From NCBI RefSeq assembly GCF_003234855.1, contig NZ_QKTO01000001.1, forward strand, positions 496,001 through 560,000: DNA of 64,000 nucleotides, given 5' to 3'. The notes under the pieces were generated by a model, which ran no database searches, was not told the DNA's origin, and worked only from the letters and a program-made list of their open reading frames with translations. A program made the position numbers and the translations under genes. Source of the DNA: Curtobacterium sp. MCBD17_032 (GTDB lineage Bacteria > Actinomycetota > Actinomycetes > Actinomycetales > Microbacteriaceae). Below, piece by piece: positions 5,182-11,838 of the stretch (positions are counted from its first letter, which is position 1; every line of letters begins with the position of its first letter).

Positions 5182-6107
5182 TGCGCCTCGGACCCGCGTC
5201 GGGCCTCCCGTCCGGACCCTCCGGCTGGGTCGTCCCCGAGCTGCGCGCCCCGGTCCGCACCATCGGCCGCCGCACGATCGACTTCGACTCCCGCATCGCC
5301 GTCATGGCGATCGTGAACCGCACCCCGGACTCCTTCCACGACCAGGGCCGCACCTTCGCGCTCGACCGTGCCGTCGCGGCCGCCGTCACCGCGGCCGAGC
5401 AGGGCGCCGACTGGGTCGACATCGGCGGCGTGAAGTTCGCGCCCGGACCCGAACTGTCCGCGGCGGACGAGATCGACCGCGTCGTGCCCGTCGTCGAGCA
5501 GGTCGCGCAGCAGTCAGACGTCTCGATCAGCGTCGACACCTTCCGGCCGGAGGTCGCCGCCGCCGCGATCGCCGCCGGTGCCAGCGTCGTCAACGACACC
5601 ACCGGGCTGGCGGACCCGCGGATGGCCGAGGTCGTCGCGGACTCGGACGCCACCGTCGTCATCACCCACTCGCTCGCCGCACCCCGGCAGGAGTACCCGA
5701 AGCCGCAGTACGCCGACGTCGCCGGTGAGGTCGCGGCGTTCCTCCGGCTCCGGGTCGACCGGGCGCTCGCCGCGGGCATCCCCGAGGAGCGGATCGTCAT
5801 CGACCCCGGGCACGACCTCAACAAGACCACCGTGCACACGCTCGAGCTGACCCGGCGCCTGCCGGAGGTGGTCGCGCTCGGCTACCCCGTCCTCGCGGCC
5901 GTGTCGAACAAGGACTTCGTCGGGGAGACCCTCGGCAGACCGCGGGGCGAGCGCCTGTCCGGGTCCCTCGCCGCCGCGACCATGAGCGCGGTGCTCGGCG
6001 CGCGGATCGTCCGGATGCATGACGTCCCCGAGGCCGTCGAGGCGATGCGCATGGTCGAGGCCGTCCTCGGGTGGCGGGAGCCGCTGGAAGCGAGGCACAA
6101 CACGTGA
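5181..6107 (+). CDS. folP: Dihydropteroate synthase family protein, FolP2-like
   Basis: 308 aa, TIM-barrel fold of dihydropteroate synthase, which joins dihydropterin pyrophosphate to p-aminobenzoate. Signature 1 is present as VNRTPDSFHDQG. Signature 2 reads DIGGVKFAPG where classical enzymes have DIGGESTRPG; with SNKDFVGETLG and the PGHDLNKTT block this matches the FolP2 type (Mycobacterium Rv1207-like), whose studied member lacks DHPS activity (literature knowledge). Its ATG overlaps the folE stop and its stop overlaps the next GTG, so the three genes are translationally coupled. No folB or folK is next to it. It may be the real folate enzyme in this lineage or act on another pterin. Confidence 0.82.
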   Translation: MRLGPASGLPSGPSGWVVPELRAPVRTIGRRTIDFDSRIAVMAIVNRTPDSFHDQGRTFALDRAVAAAVTAAEQGADWVDIGGVKFAPGPELSAADEIDRVVPVVEQVAQQSDVSISVDTFRPEVAAAAIAAGASVVNDTTGLADPRMAEVVADSDATVVITHSLAAPRQEYPKPQYADVAGEVAAFLRLRVDRALAAGIPEERIVIDPGHDLNKTTVHTLELTRRLPEVVALGYPVLAAVSNKDFVGETLGRPRGERLSGSLAAATMSAVLGARIVRMHDVPEAVEAMRMVEAVLGWREPLEARHNT

Positions 6108-6850
6108 CCCACCTGCCCGGCTCCGTCGCCGACCTGTCCGACGACGACCTGCTCACCGCCTACACGGACGGCGCCGAGGGCACCGCGGACGGGAGCTGGC
6201 TCCGCGTCAACTTCGTCAGCTCGCTCGACGGCTCCGCCACGGCGGCGGGGAGGTCCGGCTCCCTCGGCGGCCACGACGACCTGCGCGTGTTCGACCTGCT
6301 GCGGCGAGCGGCCGACGTCATCCTGGTCGCCGCGGGCACCGTGCGCGACGAGGGCTACGGGCCGATGGTCCTGCACGACCCGGACGTGGCGTGGCGACGG
6401 GCGCGAGGGACGGCCGACCACCCGGTGTTCGCGATCGTCACCGGGTCGCTCGGCCTCGACCCGGCCTCCCGCGTGTTCACCGAGGCGCCCGCCCGGCCGA
6501 TCGTGCTCACGACCTCCGCAGCCGACCCCGAGCGCCGCCGGGCCCTCGAGGCCGTGGCCGACGTCGTGTCCTGTGGCGAGGACACGGTCGACCCGGTGCT
6601 CGCCCGCGCCGTGCTCGTAGACCGGGGGCTCACGCGCATCCACTGCGAGGGCGGTCCGTCGTTCCTCGGCTCGCTCGTCGCGGCGGACCTGGTCGACGAG
6701 TTGTGCCTGTCGATCGACCCGTCGCTCGAGGGCGGGGCCGGTGGGCGCATCGTCCACGGCTCGTCCCCGGAGCTGCGGCGGATGCGGTTGGCGCACGTGC
6801 TGCGCGGGGCGGGCGACGTGCTGCTCACGAGGTACGTGCGGGCGCGCTGA
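6104..6850 (+). CDS. RibD C-terminal/dihydrofolate reductase-like reductase
   Basis: 248 aa, GTG start overlapping the folP stop (GTGA). The fold is that of RibD C-terminal reductases, which use NADPH to reduce pterin-like or pyrimidine substrates. Visible: WLRVNFVSSLDGSATAAGRSGSLGG (N-terminal strand and loop with the conserved SLDG), DLLRRAADVILVAAGTVRDEGYG, and the NADPH-binding stretch IHCEGGPSFLGSLVAADLVDEL. Such proteins are annotated as pyrimidine reductase family proteins in actinobacteria. There is no deaminase domain, so it is not a full RibD. The tight coupling with folE and folP suggests it reduces the pterin they make (inference). Confidence 0.82.
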   Translation: MTHLPGSVADLSDDDLLTAYTDGAEGTADGSWLRVNFVSSLDGSATAAGRSGSLGGHDDLRVFDLLRRAADVILVAAGTVRDEGYGPMVLHDPDVAWRRARGTADHPVFAIVTGSLGLDPASRVFTEAPARPIVLTTSAADPERRRALEAVADVVSCGEDTVDPVLARAVLVDRGLTRIHCEGGPSFLGSLVAADLVDELCLSIDPSLEGGAGGRIVHGSSPELRRMRLAHVLRGAGDVLLTRYVRAR

Positions 6851-6882
6851 CGGCTTACGGCTGGACCGATCGCTCAGCATCG

Positions 6883-6911
6883 TTGCCTGACATGTACCAT
6901 TTCAGTACGAT
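6883..6911 (+). promoter_or_regulatory. Promoter of the cysteine-rich exported protein, leaderless
   Basis: TTGCCT at 6883-6888, 17-bp spacer, TACGAT at 6906-6911, then six bases and the ATG at 6918; the transcript would begin at the start codon. The arms ACCGATCG (6865-6872) and CGATCGGT (6908-6915) form an inverted repeat that brackets the promoter and may bind a regulator. Confidence 0.6.
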
Positions 6912-6917
6912 CGGTGC

Positions 6918-7643
6918 ATGCCATCGTTCAGTGTTCCGCCCCGTCTCATGCTCCTGACTGCCGCTTCCACGGTGCTCGCCGTCGGCGCCACACTCTCGGT
7001 CGGTACATCTCCGACGAGCGCCGCGGTCTCGACCGCGACCAACGCTCCGAGTGCGATGAGCGACGCACCGTCGGTGGAGCAGGACCTCCAGGACATCGTG
7101 CGGGAAGCCGAGACGTGGAAGCCGCTGTCGGAGGAGGCCACCTCGACTGCGGTCGGGACGTGGACGGAGCGATCGGGTCGATCTGCGAGCGGTCTGCAAC
7201 TCGACGTCGAGGCCGCCAGGGCATTCCGTACCTCCGGGGGGACGGTACTCAGGATCCCGTTCGCGTCCTCAGCCGGGGTGCTCCCGCAGTCCAACCTGTC
7301 CGCCGTGGTCGAAGGGAACACGGTGCTCGGGTGGAGTGAGATGGTGCTCACCCCTCGGTCGGCAGACTCCGGACGCCTCCGAACGTGGGTCGATGGCACG
7401 CGCCGCATCGATCGGATCGTGGAGGCGACCGCGCCGGTGGTCCGCTCGTCGTGGTGGAGTCGCTTCTCGTCGTGCCTCAGTGGTGCCGGTGTTGCTGCAT
7501 GGGCGATCACCGCGCTGTCGATCGCTTGTTCGGCCGCCTGTGTCGTGACTGCTGGTGTCGGCTGCATCGCCTGCTTGACCGCGGCGTCCGCAGTGACCAG
7601 TGGAACGATCTCGTTCTGTGCGGGGAAGGCGAGTCGGGGATGA
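6918..7643 (+). CDS. Exported precursor with hydrophobic six-cysteine C-terminal peptide (bacteriocin-like)
   Basis: 241 aa. Residues 1-36 are a signal peptide (hydrophobic core MLLTAASTVLAVGATL, cleavage near TSA-A). Residues 37-180 are hydrophilic and beta-rich without a known motif. Residues 186-234 form a hydrophobic glycine/alanine-rich segment holding all six cysteines of the protein (186, 204, 208, 216, 219, 234), in the spacing C-x17-C-x3-C-x7-C-x2-C-x14-C. This layout, exported precursor plus a C-terminal cysteine-rich hydrophobic peptide, resembles halocin C8-type and related Gram-positive bacteriocin precursors (architectural analogy, not proven homology). The next gene overlaps it by four bases and encodes a two-helix membrane protein. 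Its codons are less GC-biased than in neighbouring genes. The bacteriocin role is inference. Confidence 0.8.
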   Translation: MPSFSVPPRLMLLTAASTVLAVGATLSVGTSPTSAAVSTATNAPSAMSDAPSVEQDLQDIVREAETWKPLSEEATSTAVGTWTERSGRSASGLQLDVEAARAFRTSGGTVLRIPFASSAGVLPQSNLSAVVEGNTVLGWSEMVLTPRSADSGRLRTWVDGTRRIDRIVEATAPVVRSSWWSRFSSCLSGAGVAAWAITALSIACSAACVVTAGVGCIACLTAASAVTSGTISFCAGKASRG

Positions 7644-7840
7644 CCCGCACCACGAAGACGACACGACGGATGGTTCCACCGGTACTCGCGATCGCAGCGG
7701 CTCTGGTCATGCTCGCAGGCAGGCTCCTCCCGCCGCTCCGAGAGGCACCGATCGTCGTCTGGAGTGCAGCGCTCACGCTCCTGCTGGCGGCGCTTGTCTT
7801 CGCCGTCGCCGTCCGGCCTCACGGGGACGGCCGGCGGTAG
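7640..7840 (+). CDS. Small two-helix membrane protein, possible immunity or export partner
   Basis: 66 aa; ATG overlaps the stop of the cysteine-rich precursor (ATGA), so it is translationally coupled to it. A basic N-terminus (TRTTKTTRRM) precedes two hydrophobic helices, about residues 12-32 and 38-60, joined by a short PPLREAP loop, then a basic tail RPHGDGRR. Both ends would be cytoplasmic. No family recognised. Small membrane proteins coupled to bacteriocin genes often give self-immunity, which is the best guess here; a role in processing or anchoring the precursor is equally possible. Confidence 0.75.
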   Translation: MTRTTKTTRRMVPPVLAIAAALVMLAGRLLPPLREAPIVVWSAALTLLLAALVFAVAVRPHGDGRR

Positions 7841-7849: not shown

Positions 7850-8503
7850 GTGATCGACGTCGTGGTGTCCGGGGTCCTGTTCGACATGGACGGGACGCTC
7901 GTCGACTCGACCGCGATCGTCGAGGGCGCATGGGGACGGTTCGGCGCCGACCACGACCTGGACCCGCAGACGATCCTCGCCTTCTCGCACGGCCGTCAGA
8001 CGATCGACACGATCCGGCAGTTCCTGCCCGACCTGTCCCCGGACGAGCAGCGCCGGGTCGCGCTCGAGCTCGTGAACGACGAGGTCGAGAACACCGACGG
8101 CATCGTCGAGGTCCCCGGTGCCGGCGCCTTCGTCCGACGGCTGCGGGACGCCGGCGTGCCGGTGGCGCTCGTCACCAGTGCCCCGCGGGACCTCGCCGTG
8201 AACCGGATGCGGGCCGCGGACGTGCCCGTCCCGGACGCGTTCGTCTCCGCCGCCGACGTCGAGCACGGCAAGCCGCACCCGGACGGCTACCTCCGCGGGG
8301 CCGCCTTGCTCGGGCTCGCCGCCACGGACTGCCTGGCCTTCGAGGACGCGCCCGCCGGCCTGGAGGCTGCGGTCGCCTCCGGTGCGACGACGGTCGCCGT
8401 CGGACCGCTCGCCACCGACGTGGCCGCGGACCTCCCGCGCATCACGGGGTACGACGGGATCACGGTCACGCCGGAGGGCGACGGGTTCCGGATCCGCGGC
8501 TGA
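7850..8503 (+). CDS. HAD-superfamily sugar/polyol phosphatase
   Basis: 217 aa, GTG start. HAD subfamily IA phosphatase that hydrolyses a small phosphorylated metabolite. Motif I is FDMDGTLVDS (nucleophile Asp and acid/base Asp), motif II is ALVTSAPRDL, the motif III lysine is in EHGKPHPDGYLRGAALLG, and motif IV is the acidic pair in FEDAPAGLEAA. The alpha-helical cap between motifs I and II (RQTIDTIRQFLP) is like that of 2-deoxyglucose-6-phosphate/glycerol-3-phosphate phosphatases. It lies 9 bp after the coupled small membrane gene but has its own -10-like TAGGGT six bases upstream. The substrate is not determinable. Confidence 0.9.
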   Translation: MIDVVVSGVLFDMDGTLVDSTAIVEGAWGRFGADHDLDPQTILAFSHGRQTIDTIRQFLPDLSPDEQRRVALELVNDEVENTDGIVEVPGAGAFVRRLRDAGVPVALVTSAPRDLAVNRMRAADVPVPDAFVSAADVEHGKPHPDGYLRGAALLGLAATDCLAFEDAPAGLEAAVASGATTVAVGPLATDVAADLPRITGYDGITVTPEGDGFRIRG

Positions 8504-9845: not shown

Positions 9846-9904
9846 GTCGTGCCTCCCGCGGTGAGGCGGGAGACGCCCCCGTCCGTCCGAGACGCCGCGT
9901 CGTC

Positions 9905-9938
9905 CGCGAGACGCCGCCGGATCCGGCGGCGTCTCGCG
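9905..9938. repeat. 34-bp perfect palindrome at the head of the minisatellite
   Basis: Arms 9905-9921 and 9922-9938 are exact reverse complements, centred on GGATCC. Each arm contains one GGCGGCGTCTCGCG motif, so the palindrome is an inverted pair of the 19-bp repeat core that follows. Confidence 0.85.
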
Positions 9939-10068
9939 AAGGCGGCGGCGTCTCGCGAACGCGGCGGCGTCTCGCGAACGCGGCGGCGTCTTCCGAACGC
10001 GGCGGCGTCTCGCGAACGCGGCGGCGTCTTCCGAACGCGGCGGCGTCTTCCGAAGGCGGCGGCGTCTC
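9936..10068. repeat. 19-bp tandem repeat, seven copies
   Basis: Seven head-to-tail 19-bp units: GCGAACGCGGCGGCGTCTC with small changes (first two bases GC or CC; AAC or AAG; final C or T). It occupies most of the 320 bp between the divergent MOSC and Ada-AlkA genes. The unit is not a multiple of three and no gene is called across it, so it is non-coding. No spacers, so it is not CRISPR. Nothing else is visible in that intergenic stretch except the 34-bp palindrome. Confidence 0.95.
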
Positions 10069-10152
10069 GTCGGGCCAGCTCCCGACCTGCCGGCCCACTG
10101 TGATGTCCGATACCCGCCAGTCCCTGTCGCCGGCCCGTGCCAGGCTGACCGC

Positions 10153-11838
10153 ATGACGACGACCGGAGCCGATGCGCTGCACGCCGAGCGCTACCGCATC
10201 GCCGCCTCCCGTGACGCCCGGTTCGACGGGCAGTTCGTCACCGCCGTGCACTCCACCGGCATCTACTGCCGGCCGAGCTGCCCGGCCAGGACCCCGCGGT
10301 CGACCGGCGTGACCTTCTACCGGACCAGCGCCGCCGCGCACCTCGCCGGGTTCCGCGCCTGCCGCCGGTGCCTGCCGGAGGCGACCCCGGGCAGCCCGGA
10401 GTGGGACCTGCGCGAGGACGTCGCCGGACGGGCGATGCGTCTCGTGGTGGACGGCGTCGTCGACCGGGAGGGCGTGCCGGGCCTTGCCCGCCGGGTCGGC
10501 TACTCCGAGCGGCAGCTCAACCGCATCATGACCGAAGAGCTCGGCGCCGGCCCGAAGGCCCTGAGCCGTGCGCACCGTGCGCAGACGGCCCGCACGCTCC
10601 TCACGGCGTCCGACCTGTCGGTCGCCGACGTCGCGTTCGCGTCCGGGTTCACGAGCATCCGCCAGTTCAACGACACCGTGCGCGAGGTCTTCGCGCTCAC
10701 CCCGACCGAACTCCGCGCCCACCGGCGATCCGCGCCCAGCGCCGACGGTGCACTGCGGGTCCACCTCCCGGCCCGGCCGCCGTTCGACGTGCAGGGACTG
10801 CTCGAGTGGCACGCGCTGCACGCGCTCGCCGGCATGGAGCAGGTCGAGACCGGAGCAGACGGTCGGGTCACGTCCTACGGTCGGGTGCTGGACCTGCCGG
10901 GAGGCCCGGCCTGGTTCCGCGCATCGGCTGCGGCACCCGACGGGGCCGGGTCGGGAGCCGGCCGGCAGCGCGTCCCTGGAGCGAGGAGCCGCGTCGGCAT
11001 CGACCTGCTCGTGCGCCTGACGGACCTCTCCGACCTGCCGACGCTCGTCGCCCGGGTACGAGCACTCTTCGACCTCGACGCGGACCCGGTGGCGGTGGAC
11101 GCCGCGCTCGCCGCGGTGCCCGCACTCGCACCGGTCGTCGCTCGGATCCCCGGCATGCGGCTGCCCGGCGCGGTGGACCCGCACGAGGTCGTGTTCCGCA
11201 CGCTCATCGGGCAGCAGGTGTCCGTCGCGGCGGCGAGGACCGCGCAGACCCGGCTCGTGGCGGCGCTCGGCACCCCGGTGCCGGCCGGGCTGGTGTCGGG
11301 CGGCCTCGAGCCGGGCGGACCGGTGTCGGGCGGCCTCGAGCCGGGTGGACCGGTGTCGGGCGGACCGGTGTCGGGCGGCCTCGTGCCGGGTGCGGCCGTG
11401 GCGCGTACGTTCCCGCGGGCCGCCGTCGTCGCCGAGCGTGGAGGCGAGGTCCTCCGCGGCCCCGCTGCCCGGGTCGACACGATCATGCGCGTCGCGGCTG
11501 CTCTCGCGGACGGGTCGCTCGTGGTCGACGGCGGGCAGTCCCTCGACGACCTGCGATCGGGGTTGCTCGCCGTGAAGGGCATCGGCCCGTGGACGGCCGA
11601 CTACGTCGCGCTGCGGGTCCGGCACCATCCTGATCTCTTCCTCCACAGTGACCTCGCGGTCCGGAACGGTGCACAGGAACTCGGGCTGCCCGGGACGGCG
11701 CGCGAGCTCTCCCTATGGTCGGAACGGGTGGCCCCCTGGCGGAGCTACCTGACGATGCACTGCTGGCGGCCGATCATCGATCGCGCGATGGACCGGACCG
11801 CGGCGACCACCACGACCTCCGGGAAGGAACCCCGATGA
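10153..11838 (+). CDS. Ada-AlkA fusion: methyl-phosphotriester-sensing regulator with 3-methyladenine DNA glycosylase
   Basis: 561 aa. Residues about 10-85 are the Ada zinc domain (RYRIAASRDARFDGQFVTAVHSTGIYCRPSCPAR and CRRCLPEA, four metal cysteines including the acceptor). Residues about 95-195 are an AraC-type HTH (LARRVGYSERQLNRIM; FASGFTSIRQFNDTVREVF). Residues about 205 to the end are AlkA with a HhH-GPD fold: GIGPWTADYVALR and the catalytic Asp in FLHSDLAVRNG. The protein would sense methylated phosphotriesters, activate the alkylation response and excise alkylated bases. A repeat-built insertion (VSGGLEPGGP units, residues about 381-415) interrupts the glycosylase domain. ogt overlaps its stop by four bases. 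Confidence 0.93.
   Translation: MTTTGADALHAERYRIAASRDARFDGQFVTAVHSTGIYCRPSCPARTPRSTGVTFYRTSAAAHLAGFRACRRCLPEATPGSPEWDLREDVAGRAMRLVVDGVVDREGVPGLARRVGYSERQLNRIMTEELGAGPKALSRAHRAQTARTLLTASDLSVADVAFASGFTSIRQFNDTVREVFALTPTELRAHRRSAPSADGALRVHLPARPPFDVQGLLEWHALHALAGMEQVETGADGRVTSYGRVLDLPGGPAWFRASAAAPDGAGSGAGRQRVPGARSRVGIDLLVRLTDLSDLPTLVARVRALFDLDADPVAVDAALAAVPALAPVVARIPGMRLPGAVDPHEVVFRTLIGQQVSVAAARTAQTRLVAALGTPVPAGLVSGGLEPGGPVSGGLEPGGPVSGGPVSGGLVPGAAVARTFPRAAVVAERGGEVLRGPAARVDTIMRVAAALADGSLVVDGGQSLDDLRSGLLAVKGIGPWTADYVALRVRHHPDLFLHSDLAVRNGAQELGLPGTARELSLWSERVAPWRSYLTMHCWRPIIDRAMDRTAATTTTSGKEPR
11293..11397 (+). repeat. 30-bp in-frame tandem repeat inside the AlkA domain
   Basis: Two full 30-bp copies (11293-11322, 11323-11352), a 15-bp half copy and a diverged fourth copy, encoding VSGGLEPGGP-type units. 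Being in multiples of 15 bp it preserves the frame and lengthens a surface loop of the glycosylase. Confidence 0.85.

Follow-up and report, generated by a model that had tools for sequence, protein, structure and literature searches.

The described systems closest to the locus presented here are the haloarchaeal halocin C8, a Gram-positive family of NCBIfam and the SDP/YIT systems of Bacillus subtilis. The mature halocin C8 peptide possesses ten cysteines, and its production and the immunity against it reportedly stem from one gene. The NCBIfam family TIGR04450 (Gpos_C8_like, 'putative immunity/bacteriocin fusion bifunctional protein'), for which a cut-off of 27 bits is set, holds proteins of about 240 amino acids with an export signal, a hydrophilic domain and a hydrophobic, cysteine-rich C-terminal segment. 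In SDP/YIT (SdpC, YitM) a precursor with secretion signal and pro-region carries a hydrophobic C-terminal toxin, which is freed after secretion and acts on membranes; SdpI is the immunity protein of SDP, and SdpA and SdpB are its maturation helpers. Some strains are described as holding only sdpRI homologs (PMC6818787). For EntV of Enterococcus faecalis, an exported pro-peptide requiring protease cleavage as well as disulfide formation is described (PMC6606811).

In the present study a gene pair was analysed in a window of 64,000 nucleotides from Curtobacterium sp. MCBD17_032 (Table 1). The initial annotation had proposed a candidate bacteriocin system with a precursor laid out like that of halocin C8. 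On comparative evidence we read the pair as a bacteriocin toxin-immunity module, in which P0001 would yield an exported, disulfide-bonded, membrane-active peptide and P0002 would be its immunity protein; a probability of about 0.72 is given to this reading, for which activity data are lacking.

Table 1. Positions within the window of the two genes, the parts of the precursor and the surroundings of the pair.
Feature	Positions	Strand	Remarks
RibD_C-domain gene (left flank)	6071..6850	+	outside the system; synteny
DNA missing from the near relative G036	6855..7822	.	approximate, limits read by eye
Precursor gene P0001	6918..7643	+	241 aa
Signal peptide, P0001 residues ~1-35	6918..7022	+	cleavage site inferred by eye
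Pro-domain, P0001 residues ~47-170	7056..7427	+	AlphaFold2 model; no cysteine
Putative mature peptide, P0001 residues ~176-241	7443..7640	+	six cysteines, four predicted helices
Partner gene P0002	7640..7840	+	66 aa, two membrane helices; proposed immunity protein
HAD-family hydrolase gene (right flank)	7850..8503	+	outside the system; used as synteny anchor

P0001 displays two hydrophobic stretches (residues 10-28 and 202-220) with a hydrophilic middle between them. Its signal peptide was called by eye from hydropathy and sequence, without a predictor, on account of small residues before about residue 36, and both its cleavage site and the N-terminus of the mature peptide are guesses. The confinement of six cysteines to the hydrophobic C-terminus of an exported-type precursor was confirmed to the residue: they lie at positions 186, 204, 208, 216, 219 and 234, all within the last 56 residues and none elsewhere, an outcome with p = 1.3e-4 for six cysteines placed at random in 241 residues. 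The last 66 residues contain four lysines or arginines and no aspartate or glutamate. The second gene proved to be as annotated, with a start codon overlapping the stop of P0001 by four bases (ATGA) and a 66-residue product with two hydrophobic stretches (12-30 and 38-56), a proline in the loop and a tryptophan at the start of the second helix. The lower GC bias of the codons was upheld relative to both flanking genes, GC3 being 0.784 (P0001) and 0.788 (P0002) as against 0.950 and 0.959; among 34 long ORFs of the window, chosen partly by GC3 with those below 0.6 left out, the mean was 0.863 (sd 0.095), so that the deviation is mild at this scale. Searches of Pfam, NCBIfam and PADLOC gave no match above cut-off for the window proteins. 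Further along, an iterated RRRLPNAAASRERGG-like motif at about 9870-10110 of the window, known from the ORF list alone, appears in translations of several frames and looks like a short intergenic tandem DNA repeat; at 10153-11838 a protein of Ada/AlkA appearance, named by eye, contains the internal repeat GGLEPGGPVSGG.

The distribution of the precursor family is wide and patchy, with relatives in Microbacteriaceae, Corynebacterium, Streptomyces, Arthrobacter, myxobacteria, Bacillales, an L. brevis plasmid and SPbeta-like phages. Matches to P0001 were obtained in 12 of 66 genomes of the genus, or 11 after removal of L017, which was judged to be a chance match. In the family sample the first profile matched at least nine of 398 genomes including the window's own, with two of the matches (L026 and L027) left unexamined; the count is a lower bound, as few candidates were scored per genome. 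The phylum sample yielded matches in four of 292 genomes, i.e., the window's own, the distant L096, and L097 and L098, which were both rejected as chance matches, and the sample of the Scopulibacillus order in 11 of 198, two places being unconvincing; L092 and L094 were likewise set down to chance. Fifteen loci came from named genomes of Leifsonia, Archangium, Pyxidicoccus, Brevibacterium, Arthrobacter, Streptomyces, Curtobacterium, Corynebacterium, Scopulibacillus, Microbacterium and Nocardiopsis; precursor and partner of one genus genome (L009) are those of Curtobacterium sp. Leaf261 (L038). Five of 72,556 plasmid records matched at E up to 1 and three of 50,697 phages, namely Goe11, Goe13 and Goe14. 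The last is SPbeta-like according to its record, and the first two are so described in a review (PMC8270828). A Bacillus query recovered 21 loci on viral contigs at 93-100% identity, and the actinobacterial alignment as query recovered none there. The PHROG family phrog_33667, of unassigned function, was matched at E <= 1 by 13 of 16 members scanned (best 6.9e-164) and by the window protein at 1.1e-4, and judged by these profile matches it is the phage branch of the family of P0001. Goe14 (L100:2740-3659) has a precursor with a four-base overlap to a 54-aa ORF, each of them hypothetical in the annotation, and this two-helix ORF recurs on the viral contig L059. In Scopulibacillus (L042:2932-4177) an 84-aa ORF with three helices separates a complete precursor from a short six-cysteine stretch that stands alone. 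In a search limited to open-licence literature, no description of a P0001-type family was recognised.

For comparison, 39 precursors (37 clusters at 90% identity) were aligned, the fused proteins described below being cut before their third hydrophobic stretch. Duplicates were not counted (L019, L038, L045-L058, L060-L065, L066-L080, L084, L095). The addition of L085 and of a decayed copy from Streptomyces (L041) brought the partner survey to 41 precursor rows from 40 loci, and L018, L086-L091, L093 and L096 were left out as distant or incomplete. Several rows of the survey have defects: L006 is divided between frames, L021 starts behind an in-frame TAG, L043 lacks a start in its 61-aa frame, L023 has no stop at the cut point and runs on, L007 lacks a start codon (ATG, GTG or TTG) before its signal sequence, and L041, as stated, is decayed.

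The six cysteines are the sole invariant columns of this alignment of precursors from Actinomycetota, Bacillota and Myxococcota, which bears out the conserved pattern that the bacteriocin proposal called for among homologues. They are spaced x17-x3-x7-x2-x14 in 28 of the 39 precursors, 17-3-5-2-14 in six and 17-3-11-2-14 in three, besides two single variants, and 33 of 39 have no cysteine outside the C-terminal stretch. Hydrophobicity marks the C-terminal segments (mean GRAVY 0.98 vs -0.25 in pro-domains), whose net charges range from -4 to +3 (mean +0.7), so that not all are cationic, and the pro-domains are mostly acidic (mean charge -6.2, n=36). Four rows from three Bacillota lineages (L004, L005 and its near copy L059, L006) possess an extra pair of cysteines, one located four residues ahead of the first conserved cysteine and the other four or five behind the last, and this paired gain suggests a further disulfide joining both ends. 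In L090 and L093 the outer cysteines are present, yet the C-terminal stretch holds six in all, as if one cysteine each of CxxxC and CxxC had been lost together. From both patterns it was inferred that the outermost two cysteines bond to one another and the CxxxC pair to the CxxC pair; no bond has been observed. On the L. brevis plasmid (L006:3126-4603) a two-helix ORF and the precursor interrupted in two frames are followed by a thioredoxin-like membrane protein with a CPAC motif, whose presence fits a need for disulfide formation. No conserved cleavage motif was seen by eye in the precursors.

The comparison of L007 with L008 showed purifying selection on the C-terminal segment of the precursor. 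Its last 63 residues differ by no amino-acid change (dN 0.000) at dS 0.41, and the pro-domain has dN 0.075, with dS 0.45 for the whole precursor. With dN 0.21 and dS 0.43 the partner is the least constrained part of this pair of loci and the cysteine-rich end the most. Such a partner, evolving faster than the peptide, runs against the co-evolution that might be expected of toxin and immunity protein. Also counting against the bacteriocin reading are the lack of activity, expression or mass data, the C-terminal segments that are not cationic, the absence of a cleavage motif discernible by eye and, as set out below, the moderate confidence of the C-terminal model, the rows without a partner and the undemonstrated kinship of partners across genera.

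The AlphaFold2 model of the pro-domain consists of two helices and a six-stranded sheet, with ten-residue blocks of residues 61-170 at mean pLDDT 87-97. In the C-terminal part four helices are predicted (178-189, 194-211, 214-226, 230-240; blocks at 63-89), and modelled alone this part again gave four helices at only moderate confidence (pLDDT 73, pTM 0.48). A sequence search of solved structures revealed no relative (best E 0.29). Foldseek returned no match for the whole precursor model in the PDB at E <= 0.001 nor in BFVD, and zero chains for the C-terminal segment alone, by which novelty of the fold is not shown. The best VIA-align match of the pro-domain, human cystatin C (Z 5.1, 79 residues, rmsd 3.8), was below the level of trust. 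That the pro-domain is cystatin-like, which would make the precursor a bacterial look-alike of the cathelicidin layout, may be entertained on the model alone and is unlikely.

A two-helix ORF turned out to be conserved together with the precursor, as the bacteriocin proposal demanded. Among the 41 rows it follows the precursor immediately in 15 and immediately precedes it in 11; in six rows from six genomes the two-helix part precedes the signal sequence in the same frame, and in three more a partner is close by, behind a second tandem precursor (L032, L035) or before the first part of the split one (L006). Altogether 35 of 41 rows have the partner adjacent, fused or close. Under one and the same rule direct adjacency was found in 26/41 precursor rows vs 2/91 background genes, both of the latter being partners of nearby precursors. 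Applied to eight of the left-out rows (all but L089), this rule identified a two-helix ORF at L086, L088, L091 and L096 and none at L087, L090, L093 and L018. No partner was found in four of the 41 rows (L031, L033, L003, L085), comprising both myxobacteria, B. pumilus pBP6000 and L085, and the two rows of L042 have only the three-helix neighbour. When 35 partners were aligned (32 surveyed rows plus L088, L089 and L096), tryptophan opened the second helix in 28, and of the 29 rows without a gap at the loop position 24 had a proline there. A profile of four window-type partners gave 3.8-13.7 bits or nothing with fused partners and those of other genera, the best decoy among 2000 shuffles, including block shuffles of the training partners, reaching 27.7. 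A common build and position of the partners is thus evident, but their common descent across genera is not, and on sequence grounds the fused partners and those from other genera could be unrelated proteins that merely share this build.

In Brevibacterium and Arthrobacter (L032:3749-5481, L035:3665-5413) two tandem precursors with six cysteines are followed by one two-helix ORF, possibly a two-peptide version; the second gene had been considered a two-helix partner with a pro-domain, which was dismissed since the whole reading gave a second six-cysteine precursor. In the fused frames two helices are succeeded by a third hydrophobic stretch and then the precursor. Five fusions of the same genus display an A-x-A-like motif (PARAEA, PARADA or PASAQA) after the third stretch, where cleavage would split the protector from the exported part.

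With the HAD gene as anchor, the RibD_C-HAD junction was surveyed in the 66 genus genomes. Precursor and partner are both present in three (G000, G023, G050), the partner alone in five (G011, G030, G033, G052, G062) and neither in 56; in G065 the site runs into a contig edge, and G002 lacks a close HAD copy. G036 has an empty site with about 57 bp between flanking genes whose proteins are 97% (HAD) and 94% (RibD_C) identical to those of the window, and with flanks so nearly identical a gain or loss of the pair at this site was, judging by the sequences, probably recent. No match to P0001 was found anywhere in the five genomes with an orphan partner. P0002 as a lone query retrieved three of these orphans, and all five scored 48-61 bits against a profile built from the four partners linked to a precursor (best of 2000 shuffles 27.7). 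Once the orphans were included, strong matches were confined to nine of 66 genomes, the five with orphans and four with a precursor, in G024 at another site. Orphan pairs L113/L114 and L120/L121 had dN/dS of 0.27 and 0.47. Retention of a partner without a precursor is behaviour to be expected of immunity and not of processing factors or helpers, and the orphans add a toxin/immunity signature to the invariant cysteines and the co-conserved partner, on which support for the initial bacteriocin proposal rests, comparative as it is.

TIGR04450 is the nearest named family to P0001, and a diverged but true membership in the halocin C8/TIGR04450 superfamily, in which the pro-domain and not the partner would confer immunity, had to be weighed. 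In its favour are the layout in common and weak matches to the model, one of which (L003) is colinear, with residues 92-223 aligned to 110-239 of 240 model positions. However, all scores are far under the cut-off: the window protein gave no match, one of 16 members matched at E 0.051, and four of 10 proteins reached 7.1-12.0 bits, four loci being common to both scans. The single genuine member at hand (L081, 32.5 bits) has a cysteine spacing of 7-3-16-3-8 instead of 17-3-7-2-14, and halocin C8, as mentioned above, has more cysteines altogether. Profile comparison by hhalign remained without significance (probability 2.2 at E 0.021, and 5.1 at E 0.0077 on the halocin C8-like side), albeit with shallow profiles of only two and three sequences. 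No match to TIGR04450 was found in 296 genomes of the phylum sample (the window's and 295 others), but the control genomes gave none either, so that absence is not shown. A curated halocin C8 model was not among the NCBIfam matches of the window protein (E up to 10) or of the 16 members (E up to 1). Three haloarchaeal halocin C8-like proteins (L101-L103) share with P0001 an export signal, a pro-region and a cysteine-rich, hydrophobic C-terminal peptide, and differ in a twin-arginine motif visible in L101 and L103; in two of the three loci a small hydrophobic ORF lies just downstream, as P0002 does. These ORFs, on plasmids of Halobacterium salinarum (L102:2804-3010) and Haloferax larsenii (L103:2799-3005), encode 68 aa with one clear hydrophobic stretch and begin 24 and 19 nt behind the halocin C8-like genes, despite the one-gene description of halocin C8. 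Hence the likeness to halocin C8 holds for layout, and membership, without any NCBIfam or Pfam model above cut-off, could not be established; we regard it as unlikely. Immunity, moreover, is more probably conferred by the separate partner than by the N-terminal part of the precursor. The best weak Pfam match, DUF6928 (five of 16 members, best E 0.0024), was attributed to composition.

Three further explanations assign P0002 another role. As in SDP, it could be a maturation helper for processing or oxidation of the precursor, with which tight coupling and fusions are equally consistent; but it contains no cysteine and no catalytic motif discernible by eye, and in the five genomes with an orphan a processing factor would be useless, which renders this very unlikely. 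The initial annotation itself had named as a refutation that the C-terminus merely anchors an unrelated surface protein. A hydrophobic terminal segment and a membrane-bound partner, then an insertion helper, would suit this, yet an anchor needs neither six invariant cysteines at fixed spacing nor the strongest conservation of the protein, four short helices are modelled instead of one spanning helix, and helpers without a client are unexpected, so that we consider an anchor highly improbable. Hardly more can be said for a secreted peptide signal with P0002 as its receptor: a secreted precursor does adjoin a membrane protein, and orphan receptors are conceivable too, but the loop of few residues between the two helices of P0002 leaves no space for a signalling domain, and the flanking genes encode neither kinase nor regulator; to this explanation we give scarcely any credence.

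By analogy, the P0001 system would thus act like halocin C8 or SDP, without membership in either being shown. From SDP it is set apart by six conserved cysteines and the two-helix partner; SdpA and SdpB were not found beside P0001, where only this locus was inspected, and a model for SdpC was absent among the library matches. EntV differs in size and number of cysteines, and resembles P0001 in export, cleavage and disulfides, all merely proposed for the latter. What distinguishes the system from known bacteriocins of this kind is the two-helix partner, be it separate or fused.

Under the toxin-immunity reading, P0001 would be exported via the general secretory route, and the folded, cysteine-free pro-domain would carry the hydrophobic C-terminal segment across while holding it in a soluble, harmless state. 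Once outside the cell, three disulfides would form among the six cysteines, and a proteolytic cut in the linker at about residue 175 would release a compact, cationic four-helix peptide of about 60-66 residues, presumed to insert into and permeabilise membranes of related bacteria. P0002, inferred to reside in the membrane of the producer with both ends inside, would block the peptide. In the polyprotein form of six genomes one frame would comprise immunity protein, cleavable signal sequence and toxin precursor, and a single cut at the membrane would keep the protector in the cell and let the toxin out, the two in a fixed 1:1 ratio.

Whether all these loci make up one cross-phylum class of exported four-helix bacteriocins with three disulfides and a dedicated two-helix immunity protein, occurring as gene pairs of both orders, as operons for two peptides (a tandem of precursors with one partner), in SPbeta-like phages and as a polyprotein, appears evenly balanced to us. 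If true, a family of ribosomal antibacterial peptides would exist in actinobacteria, bacilli, myxobacteria and phages, to which no function is assigned in Pfam, NCBIfam, PADLOC or PHROGs. It would come with a built-in resistance gene, the orphan copies of which would predict which strains are immune, and with its fused form it would offer one of few instances in which toxin and immunity are made as one chain.
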